From contig NZ_SJNZ01000011.1 in the NCBI RefSeq assembly GCF_004331155.1, positions 1 to 64,000 of the forward strand: a DNA stretch of 64,000 nucleotides, read 5' to 3'. Positions 47,869-52,513 of this stretch are shown piece by piece. A program made the position numbers and the translations under genes. Position 1 is the stretch's first letter. Each line of letters starts with the position of its first letter. Under the pieces are notes generated by a model, which had not been told where the DNA came from, searched no databases, and saw only the letters and a list, made by a program, of their open reading frames with translations. The DNA comes from Acinetobacter terrestris. Lineage in GTDB: Bacteria > Pseudomonadota > Gammaproteobacteria > Pseudomonadales > Moraxellaceae.

Positions 47869-49347
47869 TTAATAGACATCTCGTTGATAACGCCCTTCAA
47901 TTCTCAGCTGCTCTAATTGTTCAGCACCTAAAATATTGAGCAAGTTCTGCTCAACTTCTTGCGCCATGCCTTTTAAACTGCCACAGACATAAATTGCTGC
48001 ACCCGCTTCAATCCAACTCAAAAGCTGTTCAGATTTCTGCTGCAAGACATGCTGTACATAGACTTTTTCCGCTTGATCACGGGAAAATGCATAATCGATC
48101 TCAGGCAGCAAACCCTGATCTTGCCACAGTTGAATCTGCTCTTTATACAGATGGTCAAATTGCTGCTGTCGTTCACCGAAAATCAGCCAATTTTGCGGAT
48201 CGCTCCATTGTTGTCTTTGCGCTAAATGAGCGACTAGACCTGCGATTCCCGTTCCATTGCCAATTAAAATTAAAGGCTGATGTGAAGCTTTTAAATGAAA
48301 TGCAGGATTGGAGCGGACTTTTGCAATAACCGTTTGTTCAAGCACGGCGTATTCAGTTAACCATCCAGAACCTAGACCTAAACCCATTGCGGTTTTTTCC
48401 TGTCTAATGACTAACTCAACGCATCCTTGTTCAGGAATGCTGGCAATTGAATATTCTCGCATAGCCAAATCATCAAAGCGTCGAACCCAATCTTCAAAGG
48501 ATTGATTCGGTAATTGTTCAGGAAATTGTCTTAAATTCTTAAACTGCAATGCCGCTAATAAATCGTCATTCACTGATTGTTGCTGTGCTTGCAAAAATGC
48601 CTGTATATCTTCAAGCCGATTGCCGCATTGAACTTGCATAATATCGCCTGATGACCATGTAAGTTTTTCGGCATAAGACAATTGAATTTGATAAATCGGA
48701 TTGCCTTGGCTACCGCGATTTAAACACAGCCGATTTTTCAGGATAAAGGCATGCCAGTTTTGCGCTGGTTCAACAGCTGTTAACTGTCGCTGCGTGAGCT
48801 GTTCTAAACGTTGTGTCCAGAGATCTACATCAGCCTGCTTCAAATGATCGACACAGACCATTTCAAATAAAGCTTGTGCCTGATGCTGCTGCAAATGTTG
48901 ATTTAAAAGCTGTCCAAACTGACAAAAATTGGAATAGCGCTTATCACCCAAAGCTAAAATGGCATAGGACTGATGGGAAAGGTCTACAGCCGGTTCGCTA
49001 AAGATATTCTTTATGGCCATTCGAGCAGTATCGGGTGCATCGCCTTCACCATAGGTGCTTACAAACCATAAGACTTTGTCGGCTTGCAGTAATTGTTCAA
49101 CAGTCAAATATTGAATATCGGTCACTGTGACGCTTTGTCCAACCTCCTGTAACTGCTGTGCGGTCTGCCAAGCAAGATTTTCTGCCTGCCCCGACTGACT
49201 TGCAAAAACAACCAAATAATCATTTTGATTCAATGTCACTTCTTGTTTTTGCTTAACTTTAATTAAAATCAAGTAAGCAATAATCACCGCATAAATGAGT
49301 AATAAAATGGCGAGTGCAATTAAAACCACAGCAACAGAATGTGTCAT
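47869..49347 (-). CDS. Membrane-anchored diflavin reductase (CysJ/P450-reductase-like)
   Basis: A 492-residue protein with an N-terminal transmembrane helix (about 5-30), a flavodoxin domain (FMN loops SQSGQAENLA at 50-59 and STYGEGDAPD at 97-106), an FAD domain (REYS, 297-300), and an NADPH domain (IGNGTGIAG, about 362-370) ending in RYQRDVY as in CysJ. It should take electrons from NADPH in the cytoplasm and pass them to a membrane partner. It lies 12 bases after the PepSY gene and is in the operon headed by apbE, under a Fur box. It is not a sulfite reductase subunit by context: no cysI is nearby. It may power reduction of iron complexes. Confidence 0.82.
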   Translation of the reverse strand: MTHSVAVVLIALAILLLIYAVIIAYLILIKVKQKQEVTLNQNDYLVVFASQSGQAENLAWQTAQQLQEVGQSVTVTDIQYLTVEQLLQADKVLWFVSTYGEGDAPDTARMAIKNIFSEPAVDLSHQSYAILALGDKRYSNFCQFGQLLNQHLQQHQAQALFEMVCVDHLKQADVDLWTQRLEQLTQRQLTAVEPAQNWHAFILKNRLCLNRGSQGNPIYQIQLSYAEKLTWSSGDIMQVQCGNRLEDIQAFLQAQQQSVNDDLLAALQFKNLRQFPEQLPNQSFEDWVRRFDDLAMREYSIASIPEQGCVELVIRQEKTAMGLGLGSGWLTEYAVLEQTVIAKVRSNPAFHLKASHQPLILIGNGTGIAGLVAHLAQRQQWSDPQNWLIFGERQQQFDHLYKEQIQLWQDQGLLPEIDYAFSRDQAEKVYVQHVLQQKSEQLLSWIEAGAAIYVCGSLKGMAQEVEQNLLNILGAEQLEQLRIEGRYQRDVY

Positions 49348-49359
49348 TAGATGAGTTAC

Positions 49360-49950
49360 CTATACCGCAGACCAGATCAGCAAAATAATCATCGCCAGAC
49401 TGACTGCTGTAAGCACAAGATGGGTGACGAGTCGGGTTTTAATGCTTAAAAACAGAATATAGCCCGCTAATGATAGAACAATATAAATAATCGCGCTGAT
49501 ATCAATCAGCCAGCTCCACCCCAGACCTGAATTTTTGCCACGGTGTAAATCATTCAGCATCGAGACTGTAGACGCCGGTTTTTGGGTAATTTCCGTTTCA
49601 CCGGTATCCGCCATCACAAAAATATCGGTCGCTCCGGCTGGACTTTCCAGGCGAATCATCACTTCATTGTCCATGACTTCACTGCTTTGGTATCGTCCCA
49701 CCAGATTTTGCTGTTGGCGGACATACGTCAAAATAGCATCACTTGGGTTTTCCTGCTGTTTAATCGACTTTAAAACGGACTCGGGCAAAGTCAATTTAGC
49801 CGTTTCTTCTGTTTGAGCCGGTTCAAACCATTCAGGATGATTCAGCAACAAGCCCGTCACAGAAAAAAACAGTAAAGTGATAAATGCAAAAGCTGAAAGC
49901 CAGCCATGCACATAGCGTGCATGGCGGTAAAAATCACGACGTTGATACAC
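49360..49950 (-). CDS. PepSY-associated membrane protein
   Basis: A 196-residue inner-membrane protein with a helix at about 14-36 (VHGWLSAFAFITLLFFSVTG), a periplasmic middle part and two more helices at the C-terminus. Histidines flank the membrane parts (YRHARYVHGW and NDLHRGKN), as in PepSY-TM proteins thought to carry haem or pass electrons. It begins with GTG, with AGG about 9 bases upstream. It lies between the ApbE-type flavinyltransferase and the diflavin reductase, which suggests an electron relay across the inner membrane. The family call is good; the role is inferred. Confidence 0.75.
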   Translation of the reverse strand: MYQRRDFYRHARYVHGWLSAFAFITLLFFSVTGLLLNHPEWFEPAQTEETAKLTLPESVLKSIKQQENPSDAILTYVRQQQNLVGRYQSSEVMDNEVMIRLESPAGATDIFVMADTGETEITQKPASTVSMLNDLHRGKNSGLGWSWLIDISAIIYIVLSLAGYILFLSIKTRLVTHLVLTAVSLAMIILLIWSAV

Positions 49951-49960
49951 GTATTCGACC

Positions 49961-51520
49961 TTAGTTCACTTTTTGAAAGTTGAGTTGCACGGTACCTATT
50001 TCTTTTTGCGCAGGTAGCGTCTGGTTTGAGCCTTTGGCTTTTACATCCAGATTGAATGTTTGATAAGAATGTTCACCATGCTCACGCGAAGTTTCAATAT
50101 GAATCAGGTACTGACCTGCTGCGACCGCCTTACCGGTTTCATCCTTACCATCCCAAGCCAGCTTATAATGACCCGGTTGGCGTGAAGGTTTCGCTACGGC
50201 ATCCAGGTTTGTCATTTGGCGTCCATAACGGCGATACCAGACATAGTTCGAGTTAATCCATTTCTCATCTTTGCCCCACACCGCCAAGGTACGGACAATT
50301 TTTTTATTGGCATCGGTTACCCAAACCGAAACATAGGGAGCACGGTATTTTTCAACCGCAATTTTAGGAATCGTCAGCTCAATAATGGCTTGATAACCTG
50401 CTGGCCATTTTGTAGAGGATTGACCCGCTGCCACAGTTCGCATTTCTGCATGTTGAGGCGTTTGAACCAGACTGTTCCAACCCGAACTTTGATAAACCTG
50501 TCCATCCGTCAAGGTGACTTTAGCTTCATAACCCATCAGTGCTTCAATCAGCTCTAAACCTTCAGATGGGGTCATTGCGGCTAAGGCGGTCGCTAAAGCA
50601 TCTGCATCTGCAGCACAGCTTCCGACCACCACGCACTGTTCCACTTGCTGTAAAGGCATGCCCGTTTTCGGGTCAAGCAAATGGATTTGTCCGGCAAGAC
50701 TGCGGTAACCTTGACCACTTACGGCAATGGCCTGATCTTTTAAATTTAGAACCTGTTGTGGTGCACTGTTATCGGCAGGGTCAAAGGCATCTTGAACGCC
50801 AATCTTCCAGCCCTCTTTTTGTGGTGCATTACCCCAAACTCGGATGTCACCGCCAATATCCACCAACAGACCTTCAATACTTGGCACAGCTTGACGCGCT
50901 GCAACCAGTGCACGGTCAATAATGTAACCCTTGGCATAGGCATCCGGGGCAAATTTCACCGCATCATCCATCGCAATGCTGTGTTGTTCTGCATCCAGTT
51001 TTACGCTGTCAGCTTTTAACTGGTTTAAAACCTGGGAACGGGTGTTTTCATCCAGCTTGACTACACCGTGCGATTGTTCCCATAAAGTAATCAGTTGACC
51101 CAATCGCGCATCGAAAGCGCCACAGGTTTTATCCCGCCAGTTTTCACAGGCAGCAATCACTTCAAACAGTTCAGCTGAAACCTTGCCCTGCTTATTGTTA
51201 TTTAAGGCAGAGATTTCACTGTCATCACGCCAGGTCGATAGAATCTGATCGAGCTGGCTAATTTCTTTTTGAATGGCGTCTACAGCGCGTTTAGCCTCTT
51301 GTTTAGAAGCACCTTGAACCACCACATCTAAAGACGTACCTAAAATATGGTCACGGTGGAAACGATGGGTTTGTGTGACAATATTTTCAGACTGCTCTAT
51401 TTTTTCACTTTGCTCAGCCGCATTTGCGTGAAATGGAGGAATCAGTGCCAGCGCCATCACCAAGGGTGAGAGACGAAATGCCTTGCGGATCGGATAAAAA
51501 TTTCTAACAGCAGATGACAT
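49961..51520 (-). CDS. FAD:protein FMN transferase (ApbE) fused to a DUF2271 domain
   Basis: A 519-residue exported protein. After an N-terminal signal or anchor (about 15-35) comes the ApbE domain, with GAFDARLG, YAKGYIIDRA, LVDIGGDIRVWG and DADALATAL; these residues bind FAD and metal and transfer FMN to a threonine of a target protein. From about 360 a DUF2271 domain follows (YVSVWVTDANKKIVRTLAVWG, WYRRYGRQ). The fusion of both in one chain is unusual and suggests that DUF2271 either binds the target or is part of the same machine. No obvious FMN-acceptor motif is seen in the neighbours. It heads the minus-strand operon under a Fur box. Confidence 0.82.
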   Translation of the reverse strand: MSSAVRNFYPIRKAFRLSPLVMALALIPPFHANAAEQSEKIEQSENIVTQTHRFHRDHILGTSLDVVVQGASKQEAKRAVDAIQKEISQLDQILSTWRDDSEISALNNNKQGKVSAELFEVIAACENWRDKTCGAFDARLGQLITLWEQSHGVVKLDENTRSQVLNQLKADSVKLDAEQHSIAMDDAVKFAPDAYAKGYIIDRALVAARQAVPSIEGLLVDIGGDIRVWGNAPQKEGWKIGVQDAFDPADNSAPQQVLNLKDQAIAVSGQGYRSLAGQIHLLDPKTGMPLQQVEQCVVVGSCAADADALATALAAMTPSEGLELIEALMGYEAKVTLTDGQVYQSSGWNSLVQTPQHAEMRTVAAGQSSTKWPAGYQAIIELTIPKIAVEKYRAPYVSVWVTDANKKIVRTLAVWGKDEKWINSNYVWYRRYGRQMTNLDAVAKPSRQPGHYKLAWDGKDETGKAVAAGQYLIHIETSREHGEHSYQTFNLDVKAKGSNQTLPAQKEIGTVQLNFQKVN

Positions 51521-51555
51521 GCTGATTCTCCAGATTATTTTTAATGAATATTATT

Positions 51556-51574
51556 GATAATGATAGTAGTTATC
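51556..51574. promoter_or_regulatory. Fur box between apbE-DUF2271 and the DUF4198 gene
   Basis: GATAATGATAGTAGTTATC agrees with the classical 19-bp Fur consensus at 16 of 19 positions. It lies in the 105-base divergent gap, so it can control both directions, implying induction under iron limitation. Confidence 0.75.
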
Positions 51575-51625
51575 AAGTAGATTACGTGCATTCTATTAAA
51601 TAAAGTTGATCTGGAGTATCCAACA

Positions 51626-52513
51626 ATGAATAACTTGCTAAAAATTGCTTTACTGACATCACTCCCCGTACTCAGTCACGCGCATACCATGAGTCCTTTT
51701 CTGCTTCCTGAAGTCTTTGATACCAAGGCCGCGCAAAGTATCAGTTTCCAAAGTGCGATTACGGTCGAGAAATTTTTTGTTGCGGGGAATAACTTTAAAA
51801 CCAGCTATGTCGTGACCGAACCTGATGGTCAACAAAAACCGGTCAATGCAGCAGCATCATTAAAACGCTTTAATATTGCGGAATTTGATTTGCCTCAAGA
51901 CGGTACTTACCGTATTCGCACTCAAGATGCGCTGGGTAATAGTGGTAAATATGCCCTGGTTGATGGTCGCTGGTTACGTGTTCGCCCGGTTCGTGCCCCA
52001 ATGCAGGCGCCTGCAGCTAAACCTGCTGAAACAGCAAGCACTCAAAAGGCACCTGTCAATAATCAGCTACCACGTGCCATTGCTGCCGATCAAGTGCCTG
52101 CAAATGCGAAAACGCTTGAAGTGACTAACCACTTTATTGCGGAAAGTTATGTGACCAAAGGCAAACCTTCTGCGCTTCCAGCACCCAGCAAGAAAGGCTT
52201 TGAGTTCAAGTTACTGACTCATCCAAATGAGTTATATGCAGGTGAATCATTAAAAGCACAGGTTTTGCTGGATGGTAAGCCTGTTCCGAATCTTGAAATA
52301 GATGTGTTTAAAGGTGCCAGCAGTTATGAGCCAAATGCAAAACGTGAACAGCCGCATGTGAAAACCAATGCTAAAGGCGAAGTCGACATTAAATTAGATC
52401 AAGCTGGTATTTATTTAATTACCGCGTCTTATCCGGAAGCCAATGCGGATGCCAAAAAGAAACCGGCCACAGAAAACTTTACTTATGGCTTAACGGTTGA
52501 AGTCACAGAGTAA
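51626..52513 (+). CDS. DUF4198 family periplasmic protein
   Basis: A 295-residue exported protein with a signal peptide ending in SHAH, followed by a His-containing mature start (HTMSPFLLPEVF). It has a Pro/Ala-rich linker near 125-145 and a second immunoglobulin-like half (YAGESLKAQVLLDGKPVPNLEI, DIKLDQAGIYLITASYPE). DUF4198 proteins are often found beside metal transport genes. It is divergent from the ApbE-DUF2271 operon across a Fur box, so it is probably iron-regulated and may handle a metal or siderophore complex in the periplasm. The function is not established. Confidence 0.75.
   Translation: MNNLLKIALLTSLPVLSHAHTMSPFLLPEVFDTKAAQSISFQSAITVEKFFVAGNNFKTSYVVTEPDGQQKPVNAAASLKRFNIAEFDLPQDGTYRIRTQDALGNSGKYALVDGRWLRVRPVRAPMQAPAAKPAETASTQKAPVNNQLPRAIAADQVPANAKTLEVTNHFIAESYVTKGKPSALPAPSKKGFEFKLLTHPNELYAGESLKAQVLLDGKPVPNLEIDVFKGASSYEPNAKREQPHVKTNAKGEVDIKLDQAGIYLITASYPEANADAKKKPATENFTYGLTVEVTE

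Follow-up and report, generated by a model that had tools for sequence, protein, structure and literature searches.

A PepSY-like flavinylation gene set of Acinetobacter terrestris with ApbE fused to a DUF2271 domain of altered attachment motif

PepSY-like flavinylation systems were defined by Méheust et al. (2021, eLife, PMC8238504) as a PF03929 or PF16357 gene with an ApbE, FMN-binding, DUF2271 or DUF3570 gene no more than five genes away and at least one exported product among the flavinylation genes (FMN, flavin mononucleotide); among their 3220 PepSY-like clusters, 2833 contain DUF2271 and 1500 contain DUF4198. The same paper demonstrates flavinylation of DUF2271, dependent on the threonine of [S/T]GA[S/T], and proposes an iron-reduction role for the clusters, citing links to Fur in Shewanella and Caulobacter. 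The residue that ApbE itself loads with FMN is the last one in D-x-x-[S/T]-G-A-[S/T] (review PMC12052999). Here we analyse such a gene set at positions 47869-52513 of a 64,000-nucleotide stretch of A. terrestris DNA (hereafter the window; contig NZ_SJNZ01000011.1, assembly GCF_004331155.1), which encodes an ApbE–DUF2271 fusion, a PepSY-like membrane protein, a diflavin reductase and a DUF4198 protein. The kit itself is already known; what stands out here is that ApbE is fused to the part that it would load and that this part bears an altered attachment motif. We lean, with limited assurance, towards reading the whole as a Fur-repressed PepSY-like flavinylation system that works as a periplasmic ferric reductase with a self-flavinylated, fused carrier.

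Several described loci come close to this arrangement. In Caulobacter, CCNA_03155-03159 (CC_3059-3063) likewise combines a transporter/PepSY protein, DUF2271, DUF4198, ApbE and a sulfite-reductase-like flavoprotein, but with ApbE and DUF2271 as separate genes; CC_3059-3063 stand in a table of iron-responsive, Fur-regulated genes with first-column values of 12 to 44 (PMC3751524), and insertions in CCNA_03155-03159 are less fit in ethylenediaminetetraacetic acid (EDTA; PMC12004947). Alteromonas macleodii has an iron-responsive COG1477 (ApbE)–DUF2271 fusion together with a DUF4198 gene (MASE_18630 / MASE_18640), which, unlike the window's genes, adjoin TonB receptors (PMC7190382). A transferase fused to its substrate is also described for trypanosomatid fumarate reductase (FRDg), where FMN sits on a serine and action on the enzyme's own chain has been proposed, although there the substrate domain is unrelated and the enzyme is glycosomal in T. 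brucei (PMC8065229). FoxB and VciB can be likened, by their descriptions, to the window's membrane protein, as PepSY-type proteins associated with siderophore or ferric reduction; in FoxB two conserved histidines are found at each of two heme sites, and VciB is not tied to flavinylation genes (PMC8238504). An original prediction, made from the window's letters alone, had not recognised the four-gene set as a characterised system. That view does not stand beside the clusters of PMC8238504 and the Fur-regulated Caulobacter locus with its EDTA phenotype: the set belongs to the PepSY-like flavinylation systems that Méheust et al. described and is not new.

The four open reading frames agree with that prediction in every gene, as judged from the frame list and a Pfam search. 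Three lie on the minus strand as an operon with gaps of 10 and 12 bases, namely the ApbE–DUF2271 fusion (49961-51520; ApbE E 1.8e-56, DUF2271 E 1.5e-37), the PepSY-like membrane protein (49360-49950; PepSY_TM_like_2, PF16357, E 2.1e-42) and the diflavin reductase (47869-49347; Flavodoxin_1 E 2.4e-25, NAD_binding_1 E 9.9e-13). The gene for the DUF4198 protein, predicted to be secreted, diverges from them across a 105-base gap (51626-52513, plus strand; PF10670 E 8.9e-32). The PepSY-like gene thus lies within five genes of an ApbE/DUF2271 gene, as the published definition has it, and the window shares PF16357, ApbE, DUF2271 and DUF4198 with the Méheust clusters, some of whose PepSY proteins carry an NAD-binding domain. 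It differs from them in that ApbE and DUF2271 form one protein (PMC8238504 mentions a fusion, with RUL87804.1 as an example), DUF2271 is without [S/T]GA[S/T], DUF4198 is divergent, and the reductase is encoded separately and has a membrane helix of its own. The four-gene layout is conserved at 21 of 21 named Acinetobacter loci although the window's flanking genes recur at only five of them, which we count in favour of the reading given above; the fusion and its A. terrae counterpart share 95% protein identity. Among 79 sampled loci outside the genus, all five modules occur together in 14, and PepSY, DUF2271 and DUF4198 in 45. A plasmid search with the four-gene block gave no match. For these comparisons, 60 match places were fetched with their flanks, and the remaining places enter no count except that of the genus motif loci; the 22 Acinetobacter rows represent about 21 strains, since L148 is probably the same strain as L060.

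The feature that sets the fusion apart is the attachment site. The flavinylation-motif position of the window's DUF2271 (50183-50203, minus strand; residues D440-S446) reads DAVAKPS: the last residue, Ser446, is a serine as expected of an ApbE substrate, and positions 4-6 are changed. All 30 genus loci read, the window included, have DA[VT]AKPSR, so the published [S/T]GA[S/T], a conserved feature of the substrate and not part of the system definition, is absent here. We had at one point taken position 4 as the acceptor, which would have meant loss of the acceptor residue; this candidate was rejected, since PMC12052999 puts FMN on the last residue. The original prediction treated the protein as an ordinary covalent-FMN enzyme. 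Its acceptor serine speaks for this and the missing motif against it, and because that motif is missing we do not assume flavinylation of this DUF2271, although the acceptor is kept.

We compared 101 DUF2271 domains, 59 of them separate and 42 fused (22 from Acinetobacter, 20 from elsewhere). Position 7, the acceptor, is Ser or Thr in all 101, and an Arg or Lys follows at position 8 in 42 of 42 fusions. At position 4, all 59 separate domains have Ser or Thr, and so do nine of the 20 non-Acinetobacter fusions but none of the 22 Acinetobacter ones (Fisher test, p 6e-8, ignoring shared ancestry). Gly-Ala at positions 5-6 is found in 40/59 separate domains and in two of the 20 fusions from outside the genus (L113 and L114). 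Because the other 19 separate domains also depart from it (SA 11, GP 5, AA 1, QP 1, RP 1), position 4 is the cleaner contrast between fused and separate domains. The full [S/T]GA[S/T] is kept by 40/59 separate domains and by one of the 20 fusions; D-x-x-[ST]-G-A-[ST] is therefore altered in 19 of these 20 and at every Acinetobacter locus read. None of these counts is a frequency, because the added fusions were picked by open-frame length and only six of the separate DUF2271 that accompanied them were fetched. The notion that fusion always goes with a motif change was weakened by L114, whose fused DUF2271 retains the motif in full, and by L113, which has Gly-Ala with Ala at position 4; the nine fusions that keep Ser/Thr at position 4 also speak against strict coupling. 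A literature search, partly at title and abstract level, found no paper on a motif change in ApbE–DUF2271 fusions, and one of titles and abstract beginnings found none joining Acinetobacter to the operon.

The ApbE half appears intact in Acinetobacter. Lys197, Ser268, His280, Asp307 and Thr311 are invariant in 22 sequences from the genus, as is A196-K197-G198, and by alignment S268, H280, D307, T311 and the AKG stretch are equivalent to residues of active V. cholerae ApbE, for which Ser241, His257 and Asp285 are named as key (PMC12052999). The fusion may be exported: as read from the sequence, its N-terminus is hydrophobic and followed by an ANA/AE signal-peptidase-like site, with a hydropathy peak of only 1.3. 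All five residues are retained in 14 of the 20 fusions from outside the genus, four are without the histidine only, and two are without all five; these two are the motif exceptions L113 and L114, and the genomes of both hold another strong ApbE. The association between Gly-Ala and the state of ApbE reaches p 0.005 (Fisher test, again blind to ancestry, with the four His-less fusions counted as live). Such a pattern, at two loci only, would suit a motif that modification in trans requires and that has loosened in cis. L113 (genome G596) and L114 (G470) can be described as pseudo-ApbE carriers, their catalytic residues gone and their DUF2271 motif still Gly-Ala. A tree with more fusions and with the motif masked places the fusions on one side of a branch (support 98/76; 99% of 200 bootstrap trees) and has position 4 changing at least five times inside the fusion group; its bootstrap had not settled, some branches are long, the support lies under the tool's starred level, and it leaves out 15 separate DUF2271 of the distant GAS-[VI] type and 18 of the 22 Acinetobacter rows.

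The distribution of ApbE across the genus bears on its substrate. DUF2271 occurs in 31 of 119 Acinetobacter genomes, always in open frames long enough for the fusion (525-559 aa), and ApbE in 36, of which 31 have the fusion and five are without it but all have FMN_bind. Of the 31 fusion-bearing genomes, 26 have no ApbE besides the fusion, which is also the sole PF02424 match in the window's own genome, and no ApbE was found in the 83 genomes with neither fusion nor FMN_bind; this would fit an enzyme that serves the DUF2271 to which it is fused.

The membrane components could serve an electron path. The three-helix PepSY protein shows three hydropathy peaks, and all 71 aligned proteins share its His15 and His136 (frames of 330 aa or more were omitted from this alignment). 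The membrane anchor predicted for the diflavin protein is confirmed: its Kyte-Doolittle profile peaks at 3.4 at residue 5, and the N-terminus is hydrophobic in 22/22 Acinetobacter homologues. The half of the protein that would bind reduced nicotinamide adenine dinucleotide phosphate (NADPH) resembles CysJ (CysJ model E 1e-69, below the model's cut-off); of three sequence patterns of such reductases, R-x-Y-S is present in 18 of the 22 homologues, the SR-K-Y-Q type in 17 and the RYxxDVY-type end in 19.

A site resembling a Fur box lies between the divergent genes (51556-51574, assigned to neither strand). Scored against a 19-base Fur consensus, it matches at 16 of 19 positions, as had been predicted; it is the sole such site in the window, where 0.01 would be expected, and one of 2000 dinucleotide shuffles of the 105-base intergenic region scores as well. 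In the window's own genome the pattern gives six match rows at four places, and a reversed control pattern none. Of the other three places, two precede the genes for a TonB-receptor plug protein and a Peripla_BP_2 protein, respectively; the third, which follows a histidine kinase and precedes a NUDIX/TMP-TENI gene, is no obvious iron site. At the 21 named Acinetobacter loci the site has at most three mismatches in 12, four in three and five in six. A Fur-box-like site with conservation in relatives is present in the promoter region, and the four genes are probably switched on under iron scarcity. At L071, L072, L073, L075 and L079 the divergent gap is 312-363 bases long and holds a five-mismatch site.

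We envisage the following route. Electrons would pass from cytosolic NADPH through the flavin adenine dinucleotide (FAD) and then the FMN of the membrane-anchored diflavin reductase to one or more hemes held by the invariant PepSY histidines, from there to FMN on the periplasmic DUF2271 domain, and finally to Fe(III) or ferric complexes in the periplasm, where the DUF4198 protein, through its N-terminal histidine, would perhaps bind or hand over Fe(III). The FMN would be placed on Ser446 by the fused ApbE, acting on the chain that carries it or on a second copy of the protein. With enzyme and substrate joined in this way, the constraint on the recognition motif would have been lifted, and the motif may have drifted from [ST]-G-A-[ST] to A-K-P-S. 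A Fur-controlled trans-membrane path for periplasmic iron reduction, as originally proposed, fits these findings and what PMC8238504 proposes for its clusters, and is partly supported. For cis flavinylation at Ser446 with relaxation of the motif we stop just short of an even call. The same tentative standing goes to the wider proposal that bacterial ApbE–DUF2271 fusions flavinylate themselves and require no more of the motif than its acceptor Ser/Thr and an Arg/Lys after it, whereas members with a dead ApbE keep Gly-Ala and use a second ApbE.

A number of observations pull in the other direction. The block has no iron gene as a neighbour in the window, and Fur control is unsupported by this consensus at the six loci with five mismatches, because 15-30 of 500 shuffles reach that score. 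A first tree (66 rows, motif unmasked, leaving out 14 of 21 Acinetobacter rows and L148) split the fusions and implied two changes, with one change in 4% of bootstrap trees. PepSY His38, present in 43 of 48 proteins from elsewhere, is kept in only ten of 23 from Acinetobacter; His177 is found in 23/23 Acinetobacter proteins and 0/48 others, and a swap of heme ligand between His38, missing in 13 of the 23, and His177 is possible. The fused ApbE of trypanosomatid FRDg keeps a near-canonical motif, at the extreme N-terminus (PMC8065229). An AlphaFold2 model of the fusion, built from 22 Acinetobacter sequences, is too poor to place Ser446 near the active site (pLDDT 55, pTM 0.43). Only two loci underlie the association of Gly-Ala with a dead ApbE; both branch early in one group and may not be independent. 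Four fusions from outside the genus (L110, L111 and L199, with Gln, and L196, with Pro) lack only the catalytic histidine and have altered motifs, so that an altered motif might mean flavinylation lost and not relaxed, and a separate ApbE is present in eight of 17 other fusion genomes examined. For these last two reasons we trimmed our confidence in both the overall and the cis readings. L110 and L111 are two His-less fusions of one genome (G770), and L199 and L196 come from G1226 and G1208.

The same four His-less fusions lend weight to an alternative in which the iron-reductase role is unchanged but DUF2271 carries no covalent flavin and the ApbE domain, holding FAD or FMN, is itself the periplasmic carrier. 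The changed positions 4-6 at all 30 Acinetobacter loci would be explained, and the window's own genome has no FMN_bind match and no NqrB/RnfD match over the cut-off. A mere flavin holder, however, should not need the Lys, Ser, His, Asp and Thr that are invariant in the 22 Acinetobacter sequences, and neither the universal acceptor Ser/Thr nor the Arg/Lys that follows it in every fusion is accounted for. We regard this alternative as unlikely.

DUF4198 bears on the identity of the reduced metal. Its His20, directly after the likely signal-peptidase site (the window's protein starts SHAHTMSP), is invariant in 21 of 21 Acinetobacter sequences, and an N-terminal histidine lies two alignment columns away in 54/54 proteins from elsewhere; a His-Pro at about residue 199 has its histidine in 53/54 of the latter and 22/23 of the former (frames of 200-420 aa). 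These histidines suggest a metal site, and DUF4198 is probably a periplasmic metal-binding protein. A model used for the fold search only (pLDDT 68) resembles metal-bound Zcp (9mhj among others) and a Ni-bound DUF4198 protein (9gcb), with TM-scores of 0.42-0.49 by query length; the profile match to Zcp 9mhi is weak (E 1.1e-5). Metal binding through an N-terminal histidine has been published for a DUF4198 protein (PMC12537917). An A. baumannii cefiderocol paper mentions a DUF4198 gene. It could be asked whether the path serves Ni, Cu or Zn by way of DUF4198, or a reducible siderophore or chelate, instead of free ferric iron. A DUF4198 protein of Ideonella binds Ni with a Kd of 18 nM (PMC12537917), the closest folds found for ours are Zn-, Cu- and Co-bound Zcp, and a Caulobacter paper on Zur mentions DUF2271, DUF4198 and PepSY. 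On the other side stand the Fur-like site of the window, the Fur regulation of the Caulobacter set (PMC3751524) and the TonB receptors near many loci outside the genus, and we judge such a substrate to be improbable.

Those receptors bear on one further expectation, that the genes should co-occur with siderophore receptors. It failed in the window, where a first TonB-receptor profile matched none of 102 open reading frames and a second gave one weak match, to a DcaP porin; with no TonB receptor found in the 64-kb window, the cluster lacks this mark of a siderophore-uptake locus. It held in part elsewhere: an iterated profile, which also picks up the window's DcaP porin, finds a TonB receptor within about 6 kb of five Acinetobacter loci out of 22 and, outside the genus, of 41 out of 79. 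Stricter cut-offs lower the latter count to 34-40, and the former is 5/22 in each setting without a length limit. The five Acinetobacter frames reach only 390-422 aa and run to the end of the locus. The five loci with long divergent gaps (L071, L072, L073, L075 and L079) have a TonB-receptor frame close to the locus end.

That the fused ApbE instead modifies another, unrecognised exported protein in trans, with DUF2271 as a docking module only, seems quite doubtful: the non-canonical motif of its own DUF2271 and the 670 genomes with ApbE but no known substrate (PMC8238504) would agree with it, but the 83 genomes without ApbE argue that no other widely shared substrate keeps the enzyme in the genus, an argument to which a second ApbE without FMN_bind in G065, G080 and G109 is an exception. 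In these three genomes (L169-L171) the separate ApbE frame is 307 aa long, and neither an FMN_bind match nor any recognised substrate accompanies it.

This type of cluster is found widely among Gram-negative bacteria, and in Caulobacter it contributes to fitness under chelation. As a group, the fusions offer a natural experiment on how ApbE chooses its target, and the present analysis names one protein and one serine, Ser446, as a candidate site. Should the altered loop be flavinylated in cis, D-x-x-[ST]-G-A-[ST] would apply as a rule to encounters in trans, and surveys that rely on the motif would miss such fusions and under-count flavinylated proteins.

The block is flanked in the window by genes for a biotin-dependent carboxylase, an HMGL-like lyase and coenzyme A-transferase subunits on one side, and for the DcaP porin, a major facilitator superfamily transporter and a LysR regulator on the other. 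A distant type of DUF2271, in which GAS is followed by Val or Ile, was seen at L119-L121, L125-L128, L142-L144, L146, L147, L166 and L167. The PepSY profile found no separate PepSY gene beside it; the domain adjoins a large flavodoxin-FNR frame of 736-918 aa.

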